This document shows positions 5,580 to 19,975 of a DNA stretch of 26,526 nt, one piece after another; positions within the stretch are counted from its first letter, which is position 1; every line of letters starts with the position of its first letter. The notes under the pieces were generated by a model, which saw only the letters and a list, made by a program, of their open reading frames with translations, ran no database searches and was not told where the DNA came from. A program made the position numbers and the translations under genes. Source of the stretch: a virus; IMG/VR virus record IMGVR_UViG_3300032293_000327, positions 1 through 26,526 of that record. One strand, 5' to 3'.

Positions 5580-5948
5580 TCAAGCGTTACGCCTGGCGTT
5601 GGCAATCGCCCGCCGCACGAGCAGCCGCCCGGCAATGTCGAGGAATGGCAGACCGCGAGCCTCGGCCTGTTCGCGGAGCCAGCCCACGATGGTGTCGAGA
5701 TTGGCCTCGCACCACTCGACGCCCTGGCGGTCCATCTCGGCGGCGCGAGCGTTGCAGGAGCAGTCGGGGCTGGCGGTAATGCCGACCTTGGCGAGAAGTT
5801 TCTTTAGCTCGGTGCCGGGGCCGTGGGTGGGTGGGGCGACAGGCTGCGGCAATTCCGATGGTGCTGGGCACGCACGTGCAGAGCCGCAGAAGAAGTCCTC
5901 GACGCCGCAGGCCGTGCAGCGTTTTGTGGCTGGATCGCAGACGCACAT
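5580..5948 (-). CDS. Small Cys-rich protein, probable end of tail module
   Basis: The 122-residue product opens MCVCDPATKRCTACGVEDFFCGS, a C-x-C, then C-x-x-C, then C arrangement, and has a second set at SPDCSCNARAAEMDRQGVEWCEAN. It ends in a helix-rich part (IVGWLREQAEARGLPFLDIAGRLLVRRAI). An upstream ATG at 5969 would overlap the previous gene by 14 bases and add seven Ser-rich residues. I prefer 5948, seven bases after the stop, but neither has a clear ribosome binding site. The second half resembles, from memory, hypothetical proteins encoded next to Planctomycetota-linked phage tail genes. Function is unknown. A metal-binding assembly role is possible. Confidence 0.5.
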   Translation of the reverse strand: MCVCDPATKRCTACGVEDFFCGSARACPAPSELPQPVAPPTHGPGTELKKLLAKVGITASPDCSCNARAAEMDRQGVEWCEANLDTIVGWLREQAEARGLPFLDIAGRLLVRRAIANARRNA

Positions 5949-5955
5949 GAGAGAA

Positions 5956-6732
5956 CTACTGGAAGCCATTGATTGTCAGAGTGTAGGAAAATGTTCCGCT
6001 CAAGTTTGGCGATATTCCCTGTGCGGAAATGGCCCCATCACCAGAGCTAGTTGATCCAGCAAAACGCGAAAAACAAACTCCTGCCCCAATTCCGTTGCCA
6101 GTCGTTAGCCTAGAAAGGAAAAACTCCCTGCCGCCGGTCACAGTTATTCGGTTCCTTGGAGCGGCAAACGGCAGGCACGCTGGGCCGTACACCTTGAACT
6201 GAGTGGCAATTGACTCGCCGGGGGCGTCGTTCAATGCCACACCTACGTTGAACTCAAAGTCGCTGTTTTGGAAAAAATAAGAATAGCATTGCACGACGCC
6301 GCCAAAGCTAGATGAGTTCAGGTATATGCTCTGCTGCCTTCTTGTTAGCGTGACCGTTTGCTGGTTTGAGGCATTGCACGCCTCGTAGTTTGTTTCGTAC
6401 CTATACGAAAACGTGACGTTGATGAATCTCGGCACAGTGCCACCATTCGCAGTGCAATAGCAGTAGCATATTTCAACGCCAGAGCCCGATTTTGGGATGC
6501 CATTTGATGAACAAAGCTCGCATGCGCCCACCGTGCACGTGGTGCCAATGCCTCGAAACTTTTGCTCATCGCCCTGGCACTGACACGCTGGCTTGACGCT
6601 GCACGAAGTGCCCTCGCAGCACGCGCCTTCCCGGCAGGCTTCGTTGCACTCGGCCTCGGTGGCGTGGCCGCCGCCTCCGGTTTTGCCGGAGCCAGTGGTG
6701 CCGTTAAATGTGGAGACTTGTCGGCAGGGCAT
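5956..6732 (-). CDS. Cys-rich tail-tip protein with knot-like N-terminus
   Basis: The 258-residue product has 18 Cys, 14 of them in the first 95 residues (for example ECNEACREGACCEGTSC, SVKPACQC, TTCTVGACELC, EICYCYC). That density suggests a small disulfide- or zinc-stabilised module ahead of a beta-rich C-terminal part (FINVTFSYRYE, QTVTLTRRQQSIYLN, NRITVTGGREFFLSRL, GTFSYTLTINGFQ). It follows the previous gene by 12 bases with no clear Shine-Dalgarno sequence. The local DNA is visibly AT-richer than the rest of the window, which may reflect separate acquisition. No enzyme motif is seen. A receptor-contacting role at the tail tip is possible but not shown by sequence. Confidence 0.45.
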   Translation of the reverse strand: MPCRQVSTFNGTTGSGKTGGGGHATEAECNEACREGACCEGTSCSVKPACQCQGDEQKFRGIGTTCTVGACELCSSNGIPKSGSGVEICYCYCTANGGTVPRFINVTFSYRYETNYEACNASNQQTVTLTRRQQSIYLNSSSFGGVVQCYSYFFQNSDFEFNVGVALNDAPGESIATQFKVYGPACLPFAAPRNRITVTGGREFFLSRLTTGNGIGAGVCFSRFAGSTSSGDGAISAQGISPNLSGTFSYTLTINGFQ

Positions 6733-6744
6733 GTGTTGGCGGTG

Positions 6745-7311
6745 CTAGTACACAACTCCCGTGATGTCGATCTTACAAAACCTAGCGTATAGGTCATCGC
6801 CTGACGGCGTGTAGGTTGAATACGACTTGCCGATAATCCAGTCCCACCTACGCAGGGCGCTCTCCACATCAGCGCATGGGTGCGACTCGGTAGCCTGCGT
6901 CGTAACTGGCACAAAAAAGCCTTGCGATGATGTGCCACCGCACTCCAGTGCCATTGCGGGCAGTATCCCTGCGTCAATCATAGTGAACTGCATCGCAGAA
7001 CTGGATTCACCAAGCCTTAGCCTCGCAGTCCTTCCGTCAGTTGAACTCGTGGCCGGTCTTATCACCTGATGCGACCAAGCTGGAGATGAATCATCAGGTA
7101 ACGCTGTTTGCGATTCTGCCGCAAACGTAAGCCGCGAACCGGACAGAGAACATTCAAGATATCCGCTCAACGAGAATACGACAGAAACAGGACCACCACT
7201 GCAACACGACCCAAAGGCTGGATAGCAATACCACCCACCGCAGCACCCGCAGTCCTCTGCGAGCTTGCCGTCCTTGACGATCAACGAGCCGTTTTTGGTG
7301 GCGAGTGTCAT
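6745..7311 (-). CDS. Cys-rich tail-tip protein of unknown function
   Basis: This 188-residue protein opens MTLATKNGSLIVKDGKLAEDCGCCGGWYCYPAFGSCC, so that six of its ten Cys lie within the first 35 residues in C-x-C-C, C and C-C pairs, as in metal-binding or disulfide-bonded knots. The rest is beta-rich (VVFSLSGYLECSLSG, SRLTFAAESQ) and ends DDLYARFCKIDITGVVY. The ATG at 7311 forms an ATGA overlap with the upstream gene, and a TTG two codons earlier is not needed. This gene and the next have a lower GC content than their neighbours. I recall similar N-termini in hypothetical Planctomycetota-linked proteins but cannot confirm this. A virion surface role is inferred from place. Confidence 0.45.
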   Translation of the reverse strand: MTLATKNGSLIVKDGKLAEDCGCCGGWYCYPAFGSCCSGGPVSVVFSLSGYLECSLSGSRLTFAAESQTALPDDSSPAWSHQVIRPATSSTDGRTARLRLGESSSAMQFTMIDAGILPAMALECGGTSSQGFFVPVTTQATESHPCADVESALRRWDWIIGKSYSTYTPSGDDLYARFCKIDITGVVY

Positions 7312-7994
7312 GTGCAAGCCGTGGTGGAAATCGTCGTGTCGGCTGGCTTCGGGTCTTTCTTGCCGATGACGTAGACGGTTTCCTTAGTGATCTTGATACC
7401 ACCCGATTCAAGCGTCACGCCGGTCACGACATCGAGCTCAGTCGTCGCCGTGGTGCCAAGTCGCACGAGTGCCCACTTGCCTGCACCCGTGCCGCCTTCC
7501 TTCCAGAGAATCAGCCCTTCGCCTTTGACGCCGGTCTTCAGTTCCGCCGCCGACGCCTTGCAAGCAACGAACCTGTCGTCAGCCTTGTCTACCTCCACCT
7601 TGCACTGCACCACCCCGCCAACCGCTACCCTGCCGATCTTGCCGCTCTCAATCGGCTCCACGGCCACGCACCATGCCGTCGTCGTCGCGGACGGCGTGCC
7701 ACCCTGCAAGACAGGCATCTCCTCGAAAGACGCTGTAGCACCGCCTGACGACGACGTGGGCGTGATCTCCATGCCAGTTATGGCAAGCACGCCCCAGCGT
7801 GCGACGGTCACAGAAGGCTTGCAGTACGCCCACGTATAGGGCTTCAGCACAGGCGAGCCGGGAGCACCGCCTTCCGTGCCAGCGTATGCACCGAGCACCA
7901 CGTCAGCAGCGTCCTGCGCCCGGTTCCACGCCCGTGCCGAGATGGCACCGCGTAGCGGCTGGCCCGGCTCTAGGCGTCCGTCTGGGCGTGGCAT
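7308..7994 (-). CDS. Tail-tip protein of unknown function
   Basis: The 228-residue protein opens RPDGRLEPGQPLRGAISARAWNRAQDAAD, a helix start that I recall from hypothetical phage-associated proteins, followed by a mainly beta C-terminal part (WAYCKPSVTVARWGVLAITG, then FVACKASAAELKTG, and VVTGVTLESGGIKITKETVYVIG). It has no signal peptide or membrane segment. Position in the tail-tip run and a closing beta strand rich in V/T suggest a structural role. The gene shares one base with its upstream neighbour, and its TGA overlaps the start of the Cys-rich gene that follows (ATGA at 7308-7311). No enzyme motif is visible. Confidence 0.5.
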   Translation of the reverse strand: MPRPDGRLEPGQPLRGAISARAWNRAQDAADVVLGAYAGTEGGAPGSPVLKPYTWAYCKPSVTVARWGVLAITGMEITPTSSSGGATASFEEMPVLQGGTPSATTTAWCVAVEPIESGKIGRVAVGGVVQCKVEVDKADDRFVACKASAAELKTGVKGEGLILWKEGGTGAGKWALVRLGTTATTELDVVTGVTLESGGIKITKETVYVIGKKDPKPADTTISTTACT

Positions 7995-8881
7995 CAGGTG
8001 TACCCCGTGCCAAGCCCAAGGAGTGAGAAGTCAGAGTCTTTGTATACCTTGGACACGTAGACGGCTTTCGGCTGCTTGAGCAGCGTGTTGCTTGACACGG
8101 CATCCTCGTACCGCACCCACAGGTACTCGTGGCCTTTTTTCTCAATGCCGCTGATGCTGCCAATGGTCTGCCCGGTTACGTTCTTTGACGCCACAAAGCG
8201 AAACGACAGCGACCACGGGCCGCTCCCCTTTTCGTTGTCCCACTCTTGCGATCCCGAGCAGCCGACGAAAAGAACCTCGCCAGCATCAAAGCCTCGGAAG
8301 CTGGCGTTGTTCGTGGTGCCAGTGATGCCGGCAACACCTCGCACGTACGCAGCCGTCACGTACGCATTGGGAACGTCGTACTGCTCCTGCCATTGCAGCT
8401 GTGGAACGACAATGTCCACGCCGTTGACGCCGTTGGAGTCAACGCCAATGGCACCGCTCATGTTTGTCGCGGATGACGGGAACCGCTTCTCAAAGTCAAG
8501 CGTGCCGCCAGATCCTACCGAGCACGCTTGCGTGATGTGCTGCGTGCCGCCGGTTGTGTCAAACGACCTCGCCCGCTTCATCGGGTCGGGCGTTGACGGC
8601 TCGGCTCCCGTCTTCTCGTAGTTGATCGTGACTTGCCAGGCGTTATCGCCCAAGAAGGAAATCGAGTAGCTCTCTGCCCACAGCTGTGCATCGGCGACGC
8701 CGGGATACTGCCAGCCGTACCCGACGCTGCTGATCTGCTGGTTGACGGCAGCGTGAACCTCGACGTCGTTGGCAGTGCCAAAGAGCTTGTAGCTCTTCGT
8801 CATTGTTGACGCTGCCTTTCGGCCACGGCGGACAATCGTCGCCTGCCGTGAGTCGCCGTCTTCTACCCAAACGAGTGACAT
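7994..8881 (-). CDS. Distal-tail or tail-tip protein
   Basis: This 295-residue protein lies directly after the tape measure gene, where distal tail (Dit) or gpM-like tip proteins are found. It opens MSLVWVEDGDSRQATIVRRGR, has a central SYSISFLGDNAWQVTINYEKTG strand pair, then VPQLQWQEQYDVPNAYVTAAYVRGVAGITG, AGEVLFVGCSGSQ and SLSFRFVASKNVTG, and ends EYLWVRYEDA. The AGEVLFVGCSG and FVASKNVTG elements recur, from memory, in uncharacterised tail proteins of environmental phages. I cannot assign a known tip family by motif, and the call rests on position and an all-beta layout. The stop shares one base with the next start (TGATG). Confidence 0.5.
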   Translation of the reverse strand: MSLVWVEDGDSRQATIVRRGRKAASTMTKSYKLFGTANDVEVHAAVNQQISSVGYGWQYPGVADAQLWAESYSISFLGDNAWQVTINYEKTGAEPSTPDPMKRARSFDTTGGTQHITQACSVGSGGTLDFEKRFPSSATNMSGAIGVDSNGVNGVDIVVPQLQWQEQYDVPNAYVTAAYVRGVAGITGTTNNASFRGFDAGEVLFVGCSGSQEWDNEKGSGPWSLSFRFVASKNVTGQTIGSISGIEKKGHEYLWVRYEDAVSSNTLLKQPKAVYVSKVYKDSDFSLLGLGTGYT

Positions 8882-12148: not shown

Positions 12149-12511
12149 CTACCTCACAAGCCTCGGGTCGGTCATCTTTCCTTCAAGCGTGAACGTCGCC
12201 ACGCCATCCACCGGGTCTGTCTCACTGATTCCGGTCATCACGGCGAGGAACGAAAATCCAGCAGCACCGCCTTGCACCGTGAACGTGCCGCCCGTGTGCA
12301 TCCGCTCAAACGCTGTGCCGAGACCAGCGACATCGTTGAGCTCAACGCTCACGGTGCAGTCGTAGCCAGTGTTGTAGGTTGCCGCGTAGCGACTGCCGTA
12401 TGGGTTGACGTCGATAGTGCGTGCCGACTCAGTCAGCGTCACGTTGCGAGCGCTGGCGATAAAGCCACCATCGAGAACGATGGCGCAGTCTTTCCCCAGC
12501 GTGATCGCCAT
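12149..12511 (-). CDS. Tail-tube-like protein, paralogue 3
   Basis: The 120-residue product opens MAITLGKDCAIVLDGGFIASARNVTLTESARTIDVNPYGSR, then YDCTVSVELNDVAGLG, and ends DPVDGVATFTLEGKMTDPRLVR. It is the longest and, by its Asp/Thr pattern (SARTIDVNPYGSRYA), the closest of the three to typical small tail tube proteins. It directly precedes the tail chaperone gene, which is where the major tail protein gene normally lies, so it is my best candidate for the main tube subunit. No C-terminal Ig domain of the lambda gpV kind is present. The chaperone gene starts three bases after the stop. Confidence 0.7.
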   Translation of the reverse strand: MAITLGKDCAIVLDGGFIASARNVTLTESARTIDVNPYGSRYAATYNTGYDCTVSVELNDVAGLGTAFERMHTGGTFTVQGGAAGFSFLAVMTGISETDPVDGVATFTLEGKMTDPRLVR

Positions 12512-12834
12512 CAGAACTCCTTGGCGGTCACGTTGTAGGTGACTGCTCCGTCAACGCCGATGTTTTCCGACACACTCATGATCGAGAACGAGCCAGCGGT
12601 GCCGGCAGCGGTCAGCGAAGCGATGAGTCCATCGGGATCGTGGCACTCGATTTCCCAAGTCTTCGTCACGAAGCCAGCACGACTGACCCTGCGGCCAGGA
12701 GCACCAGCAGTGCCGCCGACGTTGGAGCGGTTCGAGATGTCAATCGTTTCGCATTCCTCGGTGAACGTCGCCGAGATGATGCCCTCGCCAAACGGAGGGG
12801 CGGATGCTGCGTCTCTGCCGAGTGTGATAGCCAT
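12511..12834 (-). CDS. Tail-tube-like protein, paralogue 2
   Basis: This 107-residue product opens MAITLGRDAASAPPFGEGIISATF, then TEECETIDISNRSNVGG, WEIECHDPDGLIASL and ends VDGAVTYNVTAKEF. The same MAITLG-R/K-D start and VDG-x-x-T closing strand as its two neighbours mark it as a diverged copy, with the family's typical paired-strand core and an added loop (GAPGRRV). AGGAA lies upstream of the ATG. The stop and the next start share one base (TGATG). It has a different middle from the other two, so recent duplication is unlikely. The three copies have probably specialised. Confidence 0.65.
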   Translation of the reverse strand: MAITLGRDAASAPPFGEGIISATFTEECETIDISNRSNVGGTAGAPGRRVSRAGFVTKTWEIECHDPDGLIASLTAAGTAGSFSIMSVSENIGVDGAVTYNVTAKEF

Positions 12835-12858
12835 GTAAGCAGGTTCCTGGGTGAGTGG

Positions 12859-13191
12859 TTAGGCGCTGACCGTGCGAGATCCGCTGACCGTGAAGGTGAT
12901 AATGCCGTCGAGCGGCTGGCTCTGGGCAATGTTGGTGCAGACGTAGGTGGCGTTGCCGGTCTGCGTGCCGCCGACCGTGAACGTGCCGCCGACCGTGACG
13001 CCGGGGACGTCAACGCATTCAAGCTCAATCGTCTGCTCAATGAGAGCCTTGCGGAACTTGCGTGAAGTGTCGCCGAACTTGGTGACGTCCACGTCGCTGG
13101 CAGAGTTTGTCACGGTGCATGACCGAGCGTTCGTAACGCCCGTGATGGTGACGTCTCGTCCGAGCGTGATTTCAACTGAGCCAATTGGCAT
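12859..13191 (-). CDS. Tail-tube-like protein, paralogue 1
   Basis: This is the first of three tandem, related genes. The 110-residue product opens IGSVEITLGRDVTITGV, has TVTNSASDVDVTKFGDTSRK in the middle (the family's 'distinguishing' loop with paired D/T) and ends PLDGIITFTVSGSRT. The layout (ITLGRD start, beta-rich body, DG-I/V-x-T/F-T/N-F/V end) resembles a phage tail tube or major tail protein core domain. AGGG lies six bases before the ATG. Which of the three paralogues forms the tube, and whether others cap it or form the tail start, cannot be read from sequence. It follows a 91-base gap, so it may begin a separately expressed unit. Confidence 0.6.
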   Translation of the reverse strand: MPIGSVEITLGRDVTITGVTNARSCTVTNSASDVDVTKFGDTSRKFRKALIEQTIELECVDVPGVTVGGTFTVGGTQTGNATYVCTNIAQSQPLDGIITFTVSGSRTVSA

Positions 13192-14107: not shown

Positions 14108-14566
14108 CTACGCGGGCAGCACGTTCGTCTCAAACACCCTGTATGACGCCGTGATGACCGCACGCCAGACGTTCCGCTCAGTCAGTGCATCGTCAGGATT
14201 CAAGTCGATGCTGACCGTCTGCGGACTCGTGACGCCAGCCGGCCACGTTACCGCAGGACCGAACGAATGAGCACGCACGTAGAGCATGACGCTGTCGGCG
14301 AGATCGAGCATGCCGTCAACCTCGGCGTCAGTCGTGACGTGACGCCCAACAAACACTGTGACGGTGTAATCGACCTGCATTACCTGGCGGCTGATGCGTG
14401 TCACGTCTGCATTGCCGGGAACGACGAACACCCTCGGCACGCTCATGGCGTCTACGTCAATGTTCGCCCAGTTGCGACGCTCGACAGTGGTGGAAGGAAT
14501 GCCCCACGTCACCGACTGCAAGCCGGTAGCGAGGCTGTCAGCGATAGTGCGTAGGACGCTGCTCAC
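14108..14566 (-). CDS. Tail terminator-like protein
   Basis: This 152-residue protein has the length and layout of siphovirus tail terminators (lambda gpU and relatives), which cap the finished tail and join it to the head. It opens with a helix (SSVLRTIADSLATGLQSV), then strands around VPRVFVVPG and MQVDYTVTVFVGRHV, a helix (EVDGMLDLADSVMLYVRA) and a last strand (WRAVITASYRVFE). The DYTVTVFVG strand followed by a helix is common in this group. It starts with GTG at 14566, inside a GTGA overlap with the miniprotein stop. The gp10/gpZ-like gene follows after nine bases. The call rests on fold pattern and place rather than on a firm motif. Confidence 0.65.
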   Translation of the reverse strand: MSSVLRTIADSLATGLQSVTWGIPSTTVERRNWANIDVDAMSVPRVFVVPGNADVTRISRQVMQVDYTVTVFVGRHVTTDAEVDGMLDLADSVMLYVRAHSFGPAVTWPAGVTSPQTVSIDLNPDDALTERNVWRAVITASYRVFETNVLPA

Positions 14567-14727
14567 TGCACTCCCTCCTCGAGTTGCTCGATCTCACGCC
14601 GCCGTTCCACCGCCATCCGCACCACGGCGTGGGCTTCTGCGATCACGCGGGGCATGAGGGCTGCACATCGCATGACGCAGTAGGTGCCGATGCAGCCGCA
14701 GAGGAGGAATTCGATGAGTGGTTTCAT
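14563..14727 (-). CDS. Membrane miniprotein of 54 residues, unrecognised
   Basis: A short gene fits exactly between its neighbours. Its ATG overlaps the LamG gene stop as ATGA, and its TGA overlaps the GTG start of the tail terminator gene as GTGA. The product begins MKPLIEFLLCGCIGTYCVM, a single likely membrane segment with three Cys, and ends in a charged helix (VERRREIEQLEEGVQ) that could form a coiled coil. Two perfect four-base overlaps and an open frame without gaps make a real gene likely, although no Shine-Dalgarno sequence is visible and translation would depend on coupling. The end of the gene carries GGAGGGA, which can serve the next start. I do not recognise a family. A lysis accessory or small membrane role is possible. 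Confidence 0.65.
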   Translation of the reverse strand: MKPLIEFLLCGCIGTYCVMRCAALMPRVIAEAHAVVRMAVERRREIEQLEEGVQ

Positions 14728-15848
14728 GAGTCAGGGAACGCTGCTGCGGGGACGGTGATGGTGGAGCCGGTCATTCCGCGAGACGACCCAACGGTGATTC
14801 TGAGTTCGTCGATGAACCCGTTCATAACGAATCCGCCAGACCCGTTGCCTATGAACGTAGTTGCCGACGATGCGTAGTTTGTCGAATCCGAATACGTTGA
14901 GCCTACTTGCGTTCCGTCGATATACATGCGAGTGCTACCCGACGCTCTCGCTACGGCAACGTGATACCACTGGCCTGTGCTAAGGCTGCTGCCTGTGATT
15001 TCAAAAGCATTGCCCACATACCAAGAGATGTTGCTTCCGTTCAGGACCAGTGCCGGGTAAGCACCGTTGACGCCGGGCCTGCCGTCGTAAATGCCTGTAT
15101 ATTGGCCGCTGATCGAATTGAAATACAGCCAGCACTCTAAGACAAAGTCGCCAGTGCCAAACGCAATTTGCGGAATCGTCAAATAATCGCCACTGCCGTC
15201 AAACGCCGCAGATTTTCCCCCAAACTTACTTTGCGCCGTGGACTGCGTAGCGTTGCCGACTGCCGTGATATTTTTCGGCAGCGGCGAGGAGTCAACAAAC
15301 GTGTTGCCGGTGCCGTCCATGTGCAGCAAGAGAGCAACGCTGCTGAACAGCGGATCGCCCGCCGTTGGCGTCACCGCAGCACTCTGGGTGCTATACGGCC
15401 CCGTGCCGATCCCGTTGATTCCTGCCACTCGGAACACGTGGGCCGTGCCGTTGGTCAGTCCCGTGATCGTCGCACTCGTCGCCGTAGACACCGTGTCGGT
15501 CGCCGTAGTCCAGTTGGTGCCGCCGTTGATGCTGAACTGCACCGAGTAGTCGGTCACGGGTGGCACTACGATTGCCGGGGCCGTCCACGAGACAACCGCT
15601 TGTGCGTTGGTAGCCGTGGCCGTCACGCCCGTGGGGGCAGCGGGTTTGAAGTAGTCCCAGCGTGCATCGTCGCCACCACCGCCGCCACCGCTTCCGCCGA
15701 GCGTGATGCTGACAATGTTGCCTGCGGCATTCTTGGTGTACGCGATGCCGTCCGTCCAGTTGATCGCCAGCTCGTTGGCGTCCAAGTCGCTCGTCGTCGG
15801 CACGGCGTTGGCGGTGTAGCTGCGCTTTGGCTTGATCTTGCTTGGCAT
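14724..15848 (-). CDS. Appendage protein with fibronectin III and LamG domains
   Basis: The 374-residue product begins with a typical fibre attachment sequence (KRSYTANAVPTTSDLDANELAINWTDG, which matches many phage fibres with VPT-x-x-DL-x-x-NELA-IN), then a Gly linker (51-59). A fibronectin type III domain follows at about 69-162 (APTGVTATATNAQAVVSWTAP, then ATITGLTNGTAHVFRVAG). Residues 165-355 form a LamG/concanavalin-like domain (LLLHMDGTGNTFVDSS, AAFDGSGDYL, FVLECWLYF, WYHVAVARASGSTRMYIDG, FIDELRIT), a fold that often binds sugars. It is therefore a likely glycan-binding virion appendage. It starts one base after the large fibre stop, and its own stop overlaps the small gene that follows (ATGA). 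The bound sugar cannot be inferred. Confidence 0.85.
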   Translation of the reverse strand: MPSKIKPKRSYTANAVPTTSDLDANELAINWTDGIAYTKNAAGNIVSITLGGSGGGGGGDDARWDYFKPAAPTGVTATATNAQAVVSWTAPAIVVPPVTDYSVQFSINGGTNWTTATDTVSTATSATITGLTNGTAHVFRVAGINGIGTGPYSTQSAAVTPTAGDPLFSSVALLLHMDGTGNTFVDSSPLPKNITAVGNATQSTAQSKFGGKSAAFDGSGDYLTIPQIAFGTGDFVLECWLYFNSISGQYTGIYDGRPGVNGAYPALVLNGSNISWYVGNAFEITGSSLSTGQWYHVAVARASGSTRMYIDGTQVGSTYSDSTNYASSATTFIGNGSGGFVMNGFIDELRITVGSSRGMTGSTITVPAAAFPDS

Positions 15849-15849
15849 G

Positions 15850-18036
15850 TCAGGTCACCGTGAGGGTTGCAGAGTTTGTGGTCACGCTCGACGCGCCCGT
15901 GGCCGACAGGACGCACCGGTAGCGTTTGCCGTTGTCAGCGGCGGTCAGACCAGACAGCGAGAGCGTCGGCGACGTCGCACCGGAGACGTTGGCCCACGTA
16001 GAGCCTGCGTCAGTGGATACTTGCCACTGGTAGGTAATCGTGTTGCCGGAGAAGAATCCCGAGACAGTAAACGCTGCCACGGCAGTGGCCGAGCCGATTT
16101 GCAGATAGGAAAACGCTCCGCCGCTCTGGCTGGCGTAATACCCGTCGCTCCACAACACGAACGAGCTACCGTAACTGGGATAAGCCCGCGTGGCCTGCGT
16201 CCAGTCCACGCCATTCGACGACGTGAAGTAGATCGTGCCCGGGTTTGTGGGAATGAAGCTGCCTCCGCTCGTGATTTCCTGCGCCATCACCAGCACGAAC
16301 TTGCCGTTGGCGTGCAGAAGATGACCGCGCTTGCCTGTTATCAGCGAGATCGGCAGCGTTCGCTCCACAAACGTCGTGCCGTTGGTGCTGCTGAAAATCT
16401 TCCCAACGTAGCTGTATGCCACGATCACGCTGCCGTCAGTCGCAAACTGGCAGCCATAAGCATTTCCGTATTGGCCCGAAAACGACGTGCCGCCCCATGT
16501 TCCGCTGCTGTACGTCGCACCACCACCGTTGTACTGGCCGATGTATTGCTTGCCGCCAAACGTCACTACGTTTTCAATTCGTCTGCCGTTGCTGCCCGTG
16601 CCTATTGCCGACCACGTTGCGCCGTCAGTGCTGACTCGCATGCCTTGGTTGTAGTCGAACGAAAACCACTTGCCGTCGGAGTATCCAAACGTCATTTCGC
16701 CAGACTGAGACGAGAACGTAGCAGCCTGCGTCCACGTCGCCGCGTCGTTCGAGAAAAACAGTCCGGTCTGCGTTGCCCTTACGAACTTGCCGCCAGCCGC
16801 AAACACGCTGCCACGGCTGAAGCTGATCGTTGACGCTGACCAATTCGTCAGGTCGGACGAGTAGGCCACGGTGTTGCCCGACTGCGTGGCGTAGACGCCG
16901 TTGGCGTATTGCACAGCGGACCACAGCCCCGCGCTCGGTAGCCCGGTCTTTCGCGTCCACGTCACGCCATCATCACTCGTCGCAATGTAGTCGGCCTGCG
17001 TGTTCTGATTACCTGACACAAACCATTTATCGTTGGCACGCGACACCGCGCCCCACGTTCCGCTCGGCAGCGTAGACGCCACCTCGTTTACAGCGTTGAC
17101 GCTCGTGCTCCGGCTGGCAGGCTGCGCCGTGATCGTGATGGTCGGCGTCGGCTCCACGACGACGCCGACGTAGTCGCCGCCGTCGATGGTGTCTACGTTG
17201 ACGCTAGCCAGGGCGTCAGTCAGACCGTCGATGTCGGTTGTGCTGATGACGATGTCGCCCGTGCGGCCTGCGACCGACGTCGCCACAGACGATGACAGGT
17301 CCGTGATCTGGCTGGCCGTGTGCGTGTGCGTCGATGGAGCAAACGTGCTGGGCACGTTGGTCAGGTTCGCATAGCTGATGACCGGCACAGCGTGGACGTG
17401 GTCGCTACGGCTGGCCGTCGTGCTCGTGCCCGCCGCCGCTGTGCCGAGAGCCGATGGCGTGGTGTTTGAGAGCGACGCACCGCCGCCAGCACCGTCGGCA
17501 CCGTCAGCACCGCGAGGAAGGCCGAACGCCAGGTCGACCTTGGCCCCGCCGTCGCTCGGCGTGGCCGTCACGGTGGCAGCACTGCCAGCGGCGAGCGTAG
17601 TGGCACTGACGGTGATTGTCGGCGTCGTGCCGTTTGTTCCGTTGCTTCCAGCAGCACCGGCAGGAATGCCAAACGCCAGCGAAAGGCTTCCGCCGTCCGC
17701 CGTGCCGGTTACAGTCGCACTGCTGCCAGCGGCAAGCGTCGTCACCTTGCCGACAGTTACGTTGGTTGCAGGCCCAGCCGGGATGCCGATGTCGAGCTTC
17801 GCAGCGAATGCGGTGCCGGTGTCGTTCTTGACGTACGCCTGCGAGCCAGCGGCGAGCGTCGTCACGCTGTTAATGGCTAGCGTGCCAGAGACGACCGTTG
17901 CATTGCCAGGCGAGATCGTGCCGGTAGACACGTTGACGGCACCGCCATTGCCAACAGTTGCGTTGACAGTCGAGCCGCCAGAGACGGCGACTTTCGCGGC
18001 ACCAGCGTTCGTGACTGTGACGTTGATTTCGCTCAT
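15850..18036 (-). CDS. Large fibre: repeat stalk, His-x-His motifs, Asp-box region and Ig-like domain
   Basis: This 728-residue protein is a likely receptor-binding fibre. Residues 57-180 hold three copies of a stalk module (TTLAAGS-A-VT, then FGIPAG or a variant). Residues 211-247 carry SDHVHAVP and STHTHTASQITDL, the His-x-His segments common in phage fibres, where they can bind metal along the trimer axis. Residues about 330-640 contain six Asp-box-like motifs (TSDDGVTW, YSSDLTNW, FSNDAATW, VSTDGATW, SSTNGTTF, TSSNGVDW), as in BNR/sialidase-type beta-propellers. The end (645-728) is Ig-like: TYQWQVSTDAGSTWANVSG, then LTAADNGKRYRC. The stretch ITITAQPASRSTSVNA (300-315) looks like the first strand of that Ig domain, so the propeller may be inserted within it. 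A substrate or receptor cannot be named. The next start follows one base after the stop. Confidence 0.8.
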   Translation of the reverse strand: MSEINVTVTNAGAAKVAVSGGSTVNATVGNGGAVNVSTGTISPGNATVVSGTLAINSVTTLAAGSQAYVKNDTGTAFAAKLDIGIPAGPATNVTVGKVTTLAAGSSATVTGTADGGSLSLAFGIPAGAAGSNGTNGTTPTITVSATTLAAGSAATVTATPSDGGAKVDLAFGLPRGADGADGAGGGASLSNTTPSALGTAAAGTSTTASRSDHVHAVPVISYANLTNVPSTFAPSTHTHTASQITDLSSSVATSVAGRTGDIVISTTDIDGLTDALASVNVDTIDGGDYVGVVVEPTPTITITAQPASRSTSVNAVNEVASTLPSGTWGAVSRANDKWFVSGNQNTQADYIATSDDGVTWTRKTGLPSAGLWSAVQYANGVYATQSGNTVAYSSDLTNWSASTISFSRGSVFAAGGKFVRATQTGLFFSNDAATWTQAATFSSQSGEMTFGYSDGKWFSFDYNQGMRVSTDGATWSAIGTGSNGRRIENVVTFGGKQYIGQYNGGGATYSSGTWGGTSFSGQYGNAYGCQFATDGSVIVAYSYVGKIFSSTNGTTFVERTLPISLITGKRGHLLHANGKFVLVMAQEITSGGSFIPTNPGTIYFTSSNGVDWTQATRAYPSYGSSFVLWSDGYYASQSGGAFSYLQIGSATAVAAFTVSGFFSGNTITYQWQVSTDAGSTWANVSGATSPTLSLSGLTAADNGKRYRCVLSATGASSVTTNSATLTVT
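17497..17868 (-). repeat. Triple stalk repeat in the large fibre gene
   Basis: The region encodes three successive modules of about 35-48 residues, each with a TTLAAGS start and an F/I-G-I/L-P-A/R-G end (residues 57-90, 98-130 and 146-180 of the fibre). The repeat is clearer at protein level than at DNA level. Confidence 0.65.
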
Positions 18037-18401
18037 GGTGCCTTCGGGATAAAGTCACCGCTGACGACCGTACGAGTCACGCCAGCAGGCGTCACGTAGC
18101 GAACGAAGTGCCGGTACTTGATGGCAGGCGACAGCGTTACCGTCTGAGCCTCGCTCGCACCCCAAGAAAGCGTGCCGGCGGCAGCATTGACAACCGTGAT
18201 CGTCGGCGTGATTGCAGTCGCACCAACAGCGTTGATGGTGCCGCCGCCACCACCGAAAAAGCCATTCGTGCTGACGACGTAGACGCCAGCGGAGAACGTG
18301 TACGAGGTGACGTCGATGTCCAGATCGAGCGTGAAGTTGAGTTCGTCTCCGACCACGAACTCAACGGTCAGGTCTCCCGGCAGCTGCGATACGGTAGGCA
18401 T
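18033..18401 (-). CDS. BppU-N-like structural protein
   Basis: This 122-residue protein opens LPGDLTVEFVVGDELNFTLDLDIDVTSY, has a Gly-run loop (FFGGGGGT) and closes HFVRYVTPAGVTRTVVSGDFIPK. That order (an opening Gly-Asp-Leu strand with a Gly-Asp turn, and a closing strand before TVVSGDF) resembles the N-terminal domain of baseplate upper proteins (BppU) and similar adaptor domains that link fibres to the virion. A strong GAGGAG lies eight bases upstream of the ATG. The stop overlaps the next gene, the large fibre, by four bases, which supports a working pair in which this protein is the adaptor. The 55-base gap before it contains nothing else that I can recognise. Confidence 0.55.
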   Translation of the reverse strand: MPTVSQLPGDLTVEFVVGDELNFTLDLDIDVTSYTFSAGVYVVSTNGFFGGGGGTINAVGATAITPTITVVNAAAGTLSWGASEAQTVTLSPAIKYRHFVRYVTPAGVTRTVVSGDFIPKAP

Positions 18402-18449
18402 TTCATCGACTCCTCGTGGTTGGCATTGTCATGGCGAAAAGCCAACAAA

Positions 18450-18464
18450 TGACCGGCTATGACC
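18450..18464 (-). repeat. Weak fourth copy of the intergenic motif (copy D)
   Basis: The plus strand reads tgaccggctatgacc, which overlaps the stop codon of the collagen-like gene. It matches the core of copies A to C (gaccggNtNtgccg) with a few differences and lies in the same orientation, again at a gene end followed by a gap of more than 50 bases. The match is weaker than the other three, and chance is possible. Confidence 0.25.
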
Positions 18465-19269
18465 CAAACGTGCCGCCGTCAATCGTCGCGTCGTCAAGGA
18501 CGCCAGCAGGACCGGCTGGACCTTGCGGACCAGTGGCACCGGCAACGCCAGCCGGACCGGCTGGTCCCTGTGGTCCTACATCGCCTCGATCACCTTTCGC
18601 ACCCGTAGCACCGGCAACGCCTTGAATGCCTTGGATGCCTTGCGGACCCACATCGCCAGTGTCGCCCTTCTGGCCTGCCACGCCCGGCGGTCCTTGAATG
18701 CCCTGCGGTCCCTGCGCACCAACTGCACCGGCTGGACCCGCGACGCCTTGGATGCCTTGCACGCCAGCCTCACCCGCCGGGCCGGCTGGACCGCGTTCGC
18801 CAGCGTCGCCCTTCGCACCAGCGACACCGGGAATCCCCTGCGGACCAGCAACGCCAGCGACGCCCGCTGGCCCCGCCGGGCCAACAGCCCCCGCCACGCC
18901 GGGGATTCCCTGCGGACCAGTGTCGCCGCGATCACCCTTTGCGCCCGCTGCACCGGCCACTCCGGGGATACCCTGCGGCCCCGCCACGCCAGCAACGCCA
19001 GGCACGCCTTGCGGTCCCTGCGGGCCAGCAAGGCTAATCTCAGACCACGCAGCGAGATCACTGGCAAGCCGCCAGAACTTGCCGTCTGACAGCGTCAGAA
19101 CCAGCATCCCCGCCTCACGCCGCAGCTGCGGAATAGCGTCACGCTCTGCCGTATCTGCAACGCTGCGGAAGCCACCCTTTCCGTACCGTGCCTCATGCGT
19201 GGCGTGCGTGTCGGTCGTGTCGAACGGCACGACCGGCGCGAGTACGTTGGTGCCTCGGATCTGCGTCAT
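18457..19269 (-). CDS. Collagen-like virion appendage protein
   Basis: This 270-residue protein has a short non-collagen head (1-81; THATHEARYGKGGFRSVA at 21-38, then AERDAIPQLRREAGM and WRLASDLAAW), followed by 59 uninterrupted Gly-X-Y triplets (82-258) rich in GPQ, GPA, GVA and GIP, and a 12-residue tail DDATIDGGTFGS. Such sequences form trimeric rods, and the head probably attaches to the virion or helps it to trimerise. The repeat region contains GDR, GDT and GER triplets, as in other phage collagens. Its place between a neck protein and a BppU-like protein suggests a neck or collar fibre rather than a tail-tip fibre. The IDGG tail motif also occurs in the large fibre encoded two genes downstream. 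The function is inferred from sequence type and position. Confidence 0.85.
   Translation of the reverse strand: MTQIRGTNVLAPVVPFDTTDTHATHEARYGKGGFRSVADTAERDAIPQLRREAGMLVLTLSDGKFWRLASDLAAWSEISLAGPQGPQGVPGVAGVAGPQGIPGVAGAAGAKGDRGDTGPQGIPGVAGAVGPAGPAGVAGVAGPQGIPGVAGAKGDAGERGPAGPAGEAGVQGIQGVAGPAGAVGAQGPQGIQGPPGVAGQKGDTGDVGPQGIQGIQGVAGATGAKGDRGDVGPQGPAGPAGVAGATGPQGPAGPAGVLDDATIDGGTFGS
18496..19026 (-). repeat. Collagen Gly-X-Y coding repeat
   Basis: This 531-bp stretch encodes 59 consecutive Gly-X-Y triplets. At DNA level it is a set of imperfect 9-bp-based repeats with several near-identical 20-30 base blocks, for example those encoding GPQGIPGVAG, which occurs three times. Such arrays are prone to gain and loss of triplets by slippage or recombination. 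Confidence 0.85.
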
Positions 19270-19955
19270 GAGACCACCAGATTGACGGTGCCGGTGATCG
19301 GATACGTTGAGCGATAGATGCCGTAGGACAACGCTGACTGCCCAGCGAACGTGATCGTCCGCTGCGTCGTCTCCCAGGCGGACGTCGTCAGACCGCTGAC
19401 GGCAAACGTCGGTACGCCAAAGCTCGTCGGAAGAACGACGTAGATATACGCAGTTTGTGCAGTGATTGTCCGCGACTGTGCCCGAGAGCCTCCGAGGTCA
19501 TTAGCGAGGCTTGCGACGATCTGAGCGTCAGTGATGGTCGTGGCAGCAAACGAGCCCCAGAAGCGACGCCTGAGCGTCGGAGCGACTTGCGAAGCCTCGG
19601 CAGTGGCAATCGTGTGGACTCGCACCGTCGTGCGGAATGCGTCACCGTAGTGAAACACCGGAACGCCACGCGGGCTCGTCACTTCGTACGTGATGTCAAT
19701 GCCGTTGACTGTGTCGATGATTTTGTCGTGCCGCAGCGGCTCGCCGAAGGGCAGCGTGCCAGCCTTGATGATGAAGTCTCGGGACTCCCACTGCTCGATG
19801 ACGCCGCTAGTGCCTTGCGACTCAAAGCGACTGCTGCCGATAGTGGCAAGCACTGTGCCAAAGTCCGCACCGCGAGAGTAGCGGACAGACCGCGACGCAC
19901 TCGCCGACAACTGGCCGGCGAGCCAAGACGCACCGCTGGCGAGTAAGTCGGACAT
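19266..19955 (-). CDS. Neck (head-tail joining) protein with C-terminal fibre-like domain
   Basis: The 229-residue product looks like two joined parts. Residues 1 to about 110 (SRGADFGTVLATIGSSRFE, then WESRDFIIKAG, DKIIDTVNG and VFHYGDAFR) resemble siphovirus head-tail joining proteins of the lambda FII type, which close the neck. From about 120 the protein reads RRRFWGSFAATTITDAQIV, then TAYIYVVLPTSFGVPTF, and ends YGIYRSTYPITGTVNLVV, a beta-sandwich pattern I associate with phage fibre ends. The start is ATG at 19955 with GAGG five bases upstream. A GTG two codons earlier overlaps that site. The stop overlaps the collagen-like gene by four bases (ATGA). The joint arrangement suggests that the neck itself carries an exposed appendage domain. 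The neck half is more certain than the fibre half. Confidence 0.65.
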   Translation of the reverse strand: MSDLLASGASWLAGQLSASASRSVRYSRGADFGTVLATIGSSRFESQGTSGVIEQWESRDFIIKAGTLPFGEPLRHDKIIDTVNGIDITYEVTSPRGVPVFHYGDAFRTTVRVHTIATAEASQVAPTLRRRFWGSFAATTITDAQIVASLANDLGGSRAQSRTITAQTAYIYVVLPTSFGVPTFAVSGLTTSAWETTQRTITFAGQSALSYGIYRSTYPITGTVNLVVS

Positions 19956-19975
19956 AGGCACCTCGAACTACAAGA

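Follow-up and report, generated by a model that had tools for sequence, protein, structure and literature searches.

A fibre and adhesin cassette between the stopper and presumed tail terminator genes of an uncultured freshwater phage, with a probable neck site for its collagen-like rod

Fibre and adhesin genes at the head–tail border

To which part of the virion do fibres belong when their genes lie between those of the head and those of the tail? The question is raised by the window (the whole 26,526-nt stretch analysed, from an uncultured virus record), in which the first-pass annotation had placed fibre and adhesin genes between a neck gene and the tail terminator and had suggested that they encode head, neck or collar appendages. 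The arrangement itself was borne out by family searches and by the loci of relatives. Receptor-binding genes of lambda-type phages follow the tape measure and tip genes, whereas the cassette described here lies upstream of the presumed terminator. The uncultured freshwater phage is probably a siphophage of planctomycete bacteria; a literature search for phages of Planctomycetota turned up almost nothing.

All structural genes of the window are on the minus strand. Their order, as given by family searches, is TerL, portal, MCP-protease, cement protein (PF09956), a head–tail joining protein (PF25138) and a four-gene block, past which come a 152-aa gene, a tail completion/Neck1-type gene (phrog_26), three small MTP-like genes and the tape measure. 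The cassette genes adjoin closely or share 4-nt overlaps, in an operon-like manner. The 152-aa gene that closes the cassette (14108–14566) is presumed, by position and conserved adjacency alone, to encode the tail terminator; its best family match is PF11367 (SPP1-gp17 type, E=0.012), obtained in one of 16 homologues, and its profile found nothing usable among PDB sequences. The three tandem genes at 12149–13191 (107–120 aa) have similar starts (MAITLG...), one of them weakly matches a major tail protein family, and together they perhaps encode a tail tube built of several paralogues.

Neck or collar appendages encoded beside neck genes include T4 fibritin (wac) and phi29 gp12, which differ from the window in folds and viruses. 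Fibre genes at the head–tail border are also already known, so that the layout is not unprecedented: in S-LBS1 a fibre gene lies between the MCP/head genes and the tail terminator/TMP, and in S-CBS1 Mtd and fibre genes lie between head and tail genes, as in the window. Profile comparison of the head–tail genes (portal to TMP) of both phages with those of the window detected no homology, and the likeness in layout is therefore one of analogy. The position is thus known from Synechococcus phages.

The stopper carries an extra domain

The gene preceding the cassette does encode a neck-type protein, as first annotated, but one that is better described as a stopper carrying an extra domain. Its 231-aa product (19266–19961) matches PF25138 with E=2.7e-24, which exceeds the curated cut-off. 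An AlphaFold2 model built on a 47-row alignment contains two domains, an N-terminal domain with the stopper fold (residues 1–121; 19599–19961) and an additional C-terminal domain, or CTD (residues 131–231; 19269–19571), the proposed docking site, separated by a low-confidence linker at residues 122–130. The N-terminal domain matches lambda gpFII (8k37_M/8xow_f) and the R4C and T1 stoppers (Foldseek E from 4.5e-4 to 1.1e-2, target TM 0.49–0.62). The likeness extends to the N-domain fold and gene position, as those stoppers have 102–123 residues and no CTD. Among viral models, the matches of the whole stopper comprise, with others, tail fibre proteins and baseplate proteins, though the overall TM-scores are low.

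The stopper sequence found no match among 50,697 phage records, and the stopper and CTD profiles gave nothing usable in PDB sequence searches. The CTD is missing from the stoppers of all planctomycete prophages seen and of 15 more distant IMG/VR relatives. Among the first set of relatives it did not occur outside the stopper, and elsewhere it was found only in other phages.

The CTD is paired with the N-terminal domain of the collagen-like rod

The first cassette gene (18457–19269), which at its start shares 4 nt with the end of the stopper gene, encodes the collagen-like rod protein that had been expected after the neck gene (Pfam Collagen PF01391, E=3.5e-29). It consists of an 85-residue N-terminal domain, collN (residues 1–85; 19015–19269), one unbroken run of 59 Gly-X-Y triplets (about 18493–19026), which corresponds to a rod about 50 nm long, and a 12-residue tail. 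Counted across IMG/VR contigs, dereplicated by contig, CTD and collN occur together in 77 cases, the CTD alone in two (L059 and L073), collN alone in none and neither in 49. Within one clade such co-occurrence could reflect linkage, given that the genes adjoin, and unrelated phages were therefore examined.

A tblastn search with a divergent CTD identified phages of Bacteroides and Vibrio as well as uncultured ones, and collN matched 99 records, several of them shared with the CTD matches. In these unrelated phages the CTD forms the C-terminus of a fibre-type protein, and the gene that immediately follows starts with collN. The gene ending in the CTD directly precedes the collN gene in SJC03 and DAC19 (Bacteroides) and in D93, pVp-1 and Pylo (Vibrio), and the same order is found in Tunturi_5 (Tunturiibacter) and Gundel_1 (Tenacibaculum). 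The 642-kb phage LR756502 (L240) has two CTD–collN gene pairs in tandem, which suggests a multi-segment fibre. In MT835639 both domains are present about 3.6 kb apart. Borderline cases came from jumbo phages of Erwinia/Dickeya/Yersinia and from CKB-S2, and Bacillus phage G is an exception to the pattern. A CTD match in phiAS5 was antisense and spurious, and a collN match to tachylectin-2 (PDB, 2e-4) was discarded, as it was made of weak repeated pieces; the collN profile otherwise gave nothing usable in PDB sequence searches.

A scan of IMG/VR by collN alone fetched 23 loci, some of them near-duplicates of one another, in which 18 of the 23 upstream genes end in a CTD, compared with 0 of 242 control frames. 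With the relatives used for profile training and the stopper clade set aside, the CTD is found in 12 of 17 upstream genes, with scores above every control frame. (Alignment A8 includes one stray row, L137:1-3, which carries no information.) One upstream partner is a 994-aa collagen-like fibre, which is why the pair seems to join fibre segments. CTD and collN thus look like the two halves of a docking joint, one closing a virion protein and the other opening the fibre that follows; that they bind one another is our inference from sequence, the PDB searches having provided no structure for either domain. Since the CTD partner in the window's clade is the stopper, the collagen-like rod would sit on the neck, and a neck site is probable on the grounds of this pairing.

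Ring adaptor, large fibre and FnIII/LamG protein

The second cassette gene (18033–18401) encodes a 122-aa protein, the predicted ring adaptor, whose AlphaFold2 model (pLDDT 83.8) matches DT57C 8hqz_T (Foldseek E=2e-6, TM 0.65), T5 7qg9_J (6.5e-6), the Bas63 connector 9mt4_G (9.7e-5) and a mycobacteriophage baseplate, with moderate TM-scores. The predicted fold is that of LtfC/BppU-N-type ring subunits, so that the earlier description as BppU-N-like holds for the fold, but not for a sequence family: the sequence has no match in Pfam, PDB or the 50,697 phage records and no homology to LtfC, BppU or NPS, and its best PHROG is phrog_1084 (E=0.0045), a function-unknown family. For this reason the protein is termed LtfC-like and not a family member. 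LtfC of DT57C forms a ring of twelve subunits that accommodates the fibre N-terminus (PMC10713586). In the LtfC–LtfA pair of DT57C/T5, a single-domain ring protein of about 140 aa is likewise encoded beside its fibre (PMC10713586), whereas LtfC surrounds the tail tip, with the genes of the pair located close to those of the tail tip. As the matched rings belong both to the tail tip (T5/DT57C) and to a neck connector (Bas63), the modelled fold would support an adaptor role and not a location.

The adaptor appears to be matched to its fibre. Class I adaptors occur with fibre N-terminus N1 (32 cases) and class II with N2 (15 cases), and no crossed combination was seen. Adaptor divergence correlates with that of its own fibre (r=0.82), and no neck or tail-tip gene gave a comparable distance correlation; being strong with its own fibre only, the co-divergence is uninformative on where the adaptor sits.

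The third gene (15850–18036), whose start overlaps the adaptor stop by 4 nt, encodes a 728-aa fibre with N-terminal attachment repeats (PTR, E=0.006) and an Ig-like C-terminus (15853–16089; phrog_613, E=7e-10). It had been described as a large Asp-box fibre; three to five Asp-box-like motifs can be recognized by eye (about 16200–16977), but Pfam BNR reaches only E=0.56, which makes the Asp-box assignment a weak call. The last gene (14724–15848) encodes the FnIII/LamG protein, a fibre or adhesin in which both annotated domains were recovered, FnIII at 15378–15638 (Pfam fn3, 2.5e-12) and LamG at 14796–15200 (Laminin_G_3, 7.7e-19), and the N-terminus is of fibre type (phrog_1699 long tail fibre, E=3e-6).

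Conservation and origin of the cassette

Searches of IMG/VR with the stopper and the MCP yielded 130 loci, several on contigs of about 40–44 kb. The synteny check proposed in the first-pass annotation could be made in the 38 loci that span both stopper and terminator (a few are two cuts of one contig): the two genes are 3.1–8.5 kb apart and the cassette is kept between them, in the order stopper, collagen-type gene, 122-aa gene, fibre, usually LamG-type genes, and terminator. Across these loci the layout is not due to chance.

Genome scans traced the distant relatives mostly to Planctomycetota, Zavarzinella formosa DSM 19928 among them, and 36 of the 392 planctomycete genomes have the stopper. 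The terminator directly follows the stopper, with a gap of 3–407 bp, in about 40 prophage loci of planctomycetes; the freshwater clade has therefore most likely acquired the cassette by insertion, as a derived trait. Three more distant relatives (G006–G008) lack the adaptor–fibre module, while G006 already has the CTD–collN pair; hence the module was probably added after the pair. The fibre cassettes of G007 and G008 at this site contain neither CTD nor collN, and the site therefore does not need the joint. An origin on which we are evenly divided is that a modular joint, with which phages of several bacterial phyla connect pieces of their fibres, was grafted onto the stopper, letting the rod emanate from the head-completion ring, and that a second module, the ring adaptor with its fibre, was gained next to it later.

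Other genes are found in this region of relatives. The cassettes of L150/L152 (G006), L154 (G007) and L156/L158 (G008) have what from sequence impression are a GT2-type glycosyltransferase gene (346–351 aa) and a glycosidase-like gene (316–343 aa), possibly for fibre or virion glycosylation. Two planctomycete prophages (L216 and L217) have, between the tail-completion and MTP-type genes, a 482–498-aa gene that, from sequence impression, combines segments resembling trypsin and thioredoxin with a membrane stretch at the C-terminus. Two prophages of one Phycisphaerales MAG (L175 and L232) have three conserved genes between the terminator and the MTP-type genes, one of which (416–420 aa) starts in a signal-peptide-like manner. 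In the planctomycete prophages L226, L225 and L231, fibre-like, beta-helix-like or collagen-like genes lie just after the terminator and not before it, and the neck region is thus a recurrent insertion site.

Location of the fibres on the virion

The site of a fibre does not follow from gene order by itself: the neck fibre of TP901-1, ORF51, is encoded at a site that we take to be past the baseplate genes. For the cyanosiphoviruses that share the window's layout, no fibre localisation was found in the S-LBS1 paper (PMC6157547). TP901-1 has a BppU-N-type ring at the neck, with ORF51 as the neck fibre (PMC10747895). The NPS (collar-whiskers) of TP901-1 and the 936 phages are long neck-anchored fibres with saccharide-binding ends (PMC10747895, PMC6669499); in lactococcal NPS the N-terminal ring domain has been likened to BppU-N (PMC10747895), and the N-terminus is conserved and the C-terminus variable (PMC6669499). 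NPS combine ring and fibre in one protein, whereas in the window, which is known from its genes alone, the ring-like protein and the fibre are separate and, unlike NPS, the rod seems to dock on an additional domain that the stopper has gained by fusion.

Putting together the computed layout, conservation, stopper fold, extra domain, CTD–collN pairing and adaptor–fibre class matching, we consider it rather likely that a siphophage, probably one infecting planctomycetes, has gained an adhesin cassette by insertion between its stopper gene and its terminator gene, and that the cassette works as follows. The first gene would give a collagen-like rod of about 50 nm, presumably trimeric, whose collN would dock on the stopper CTD, so that the rod would project from the neck. 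The second and third genes would provide a small LtfC/BppU-N-like ring adaptor and a large fibre held by its N-terminus, and the last a FnIII/LamG adhesin. The fibres may allow the phage to bind surface polymers of its host reversibly, in addition to a tail-tip device whose genes would follow the tape measure. Of the appendages originally suggested, this retains the neck for the collagen rod, through the CTD–collN pairing; a capsid site for the cassette proteins finds little support.

It is somewhat unlikely, yet the strongest competing reading, that the cassette fibres belong to the tail tip or the distal tail, with the 122-aa LtfC-like ring holding the fibre at the tip, and that the head–tail border merely tolerates insertions. 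Other cargo does occur near the border (the GT2 and glycosidase-like genes of G006–G008, the trypsin/thioredoxin genes of planctomycete prophages, an integrase in S-LBS1), the best fold matches of the adaptor are the tail-tip rings of T5/DT57C, and the collagen-type fibre gene of the Zavarzinella prophage lies after the tail-tip genes t295/t228. A fibre-joint domain on the stopper would, however, be left unexplained, and several relatives retain a separate, variable gene of 867–1150 aa at the tail-tip position. Head appendages decorating the capsid, Hoc-like or as head fibres, are quite improbable. The cassette genes come after the cement protein, host-contacting head fibres are known (PMC12796354), and phrog_613, which the 728-aa protein matches at its Ig-like C-terminus, is a 'head protein'; but domains of the Ig-like type occur widely, the cassette proteins showed no capsid-binding domain, and the single anchoring signal points to the stopper.

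The joint itself could be read differently, if CTD and collN were neighbours that do not bind, for instance with the CTD as a fibre folding partner or the two as parts of one former gene that was split. The genes overlap or abut by a few nucleotides, and translational coupling alone could keep their order. This is unlikely, since the two domains occupy the very ends of their proteins, the CTD the C-terminal and collN the N-terminal one, on partners as different as a stopper, a collagen fibre and other long proteins, as expected of a joint. If a docking joint is what the pair forms, a sequence rule (a CTD ending one protein, collN starting the next gene) predicts which virion protein bears which fibre, the neck included, and it becomes possible to test directly whether hosts are bound by collar fibres. 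On this reading, the attachment machinery of a phage lineage linked to Planctomycetota would be described as well.

Tail tip

Two genes after the tape measure, t295 (7994–8881) and t228 (7308–7994), are conserved in planctomycete prophages, t295 with a mean column identity of 46%. Neither matched Pfam, PHROGs or PDB by sequence (t228 searched as single proteins only), and both are candidates for new tail-tip families. In a comparison with L166, L148, L163 and L150, the region after t228 is highly variable. In some relatives it holds the single gene of 867–1150 aa, one of these with a weak BACON match. A second adhesion device at the tail tip is plausible; such a device would fit neck fibres with an auxiliary role. 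In the window, the same region holds small Cys-rich genes (5580–7317).
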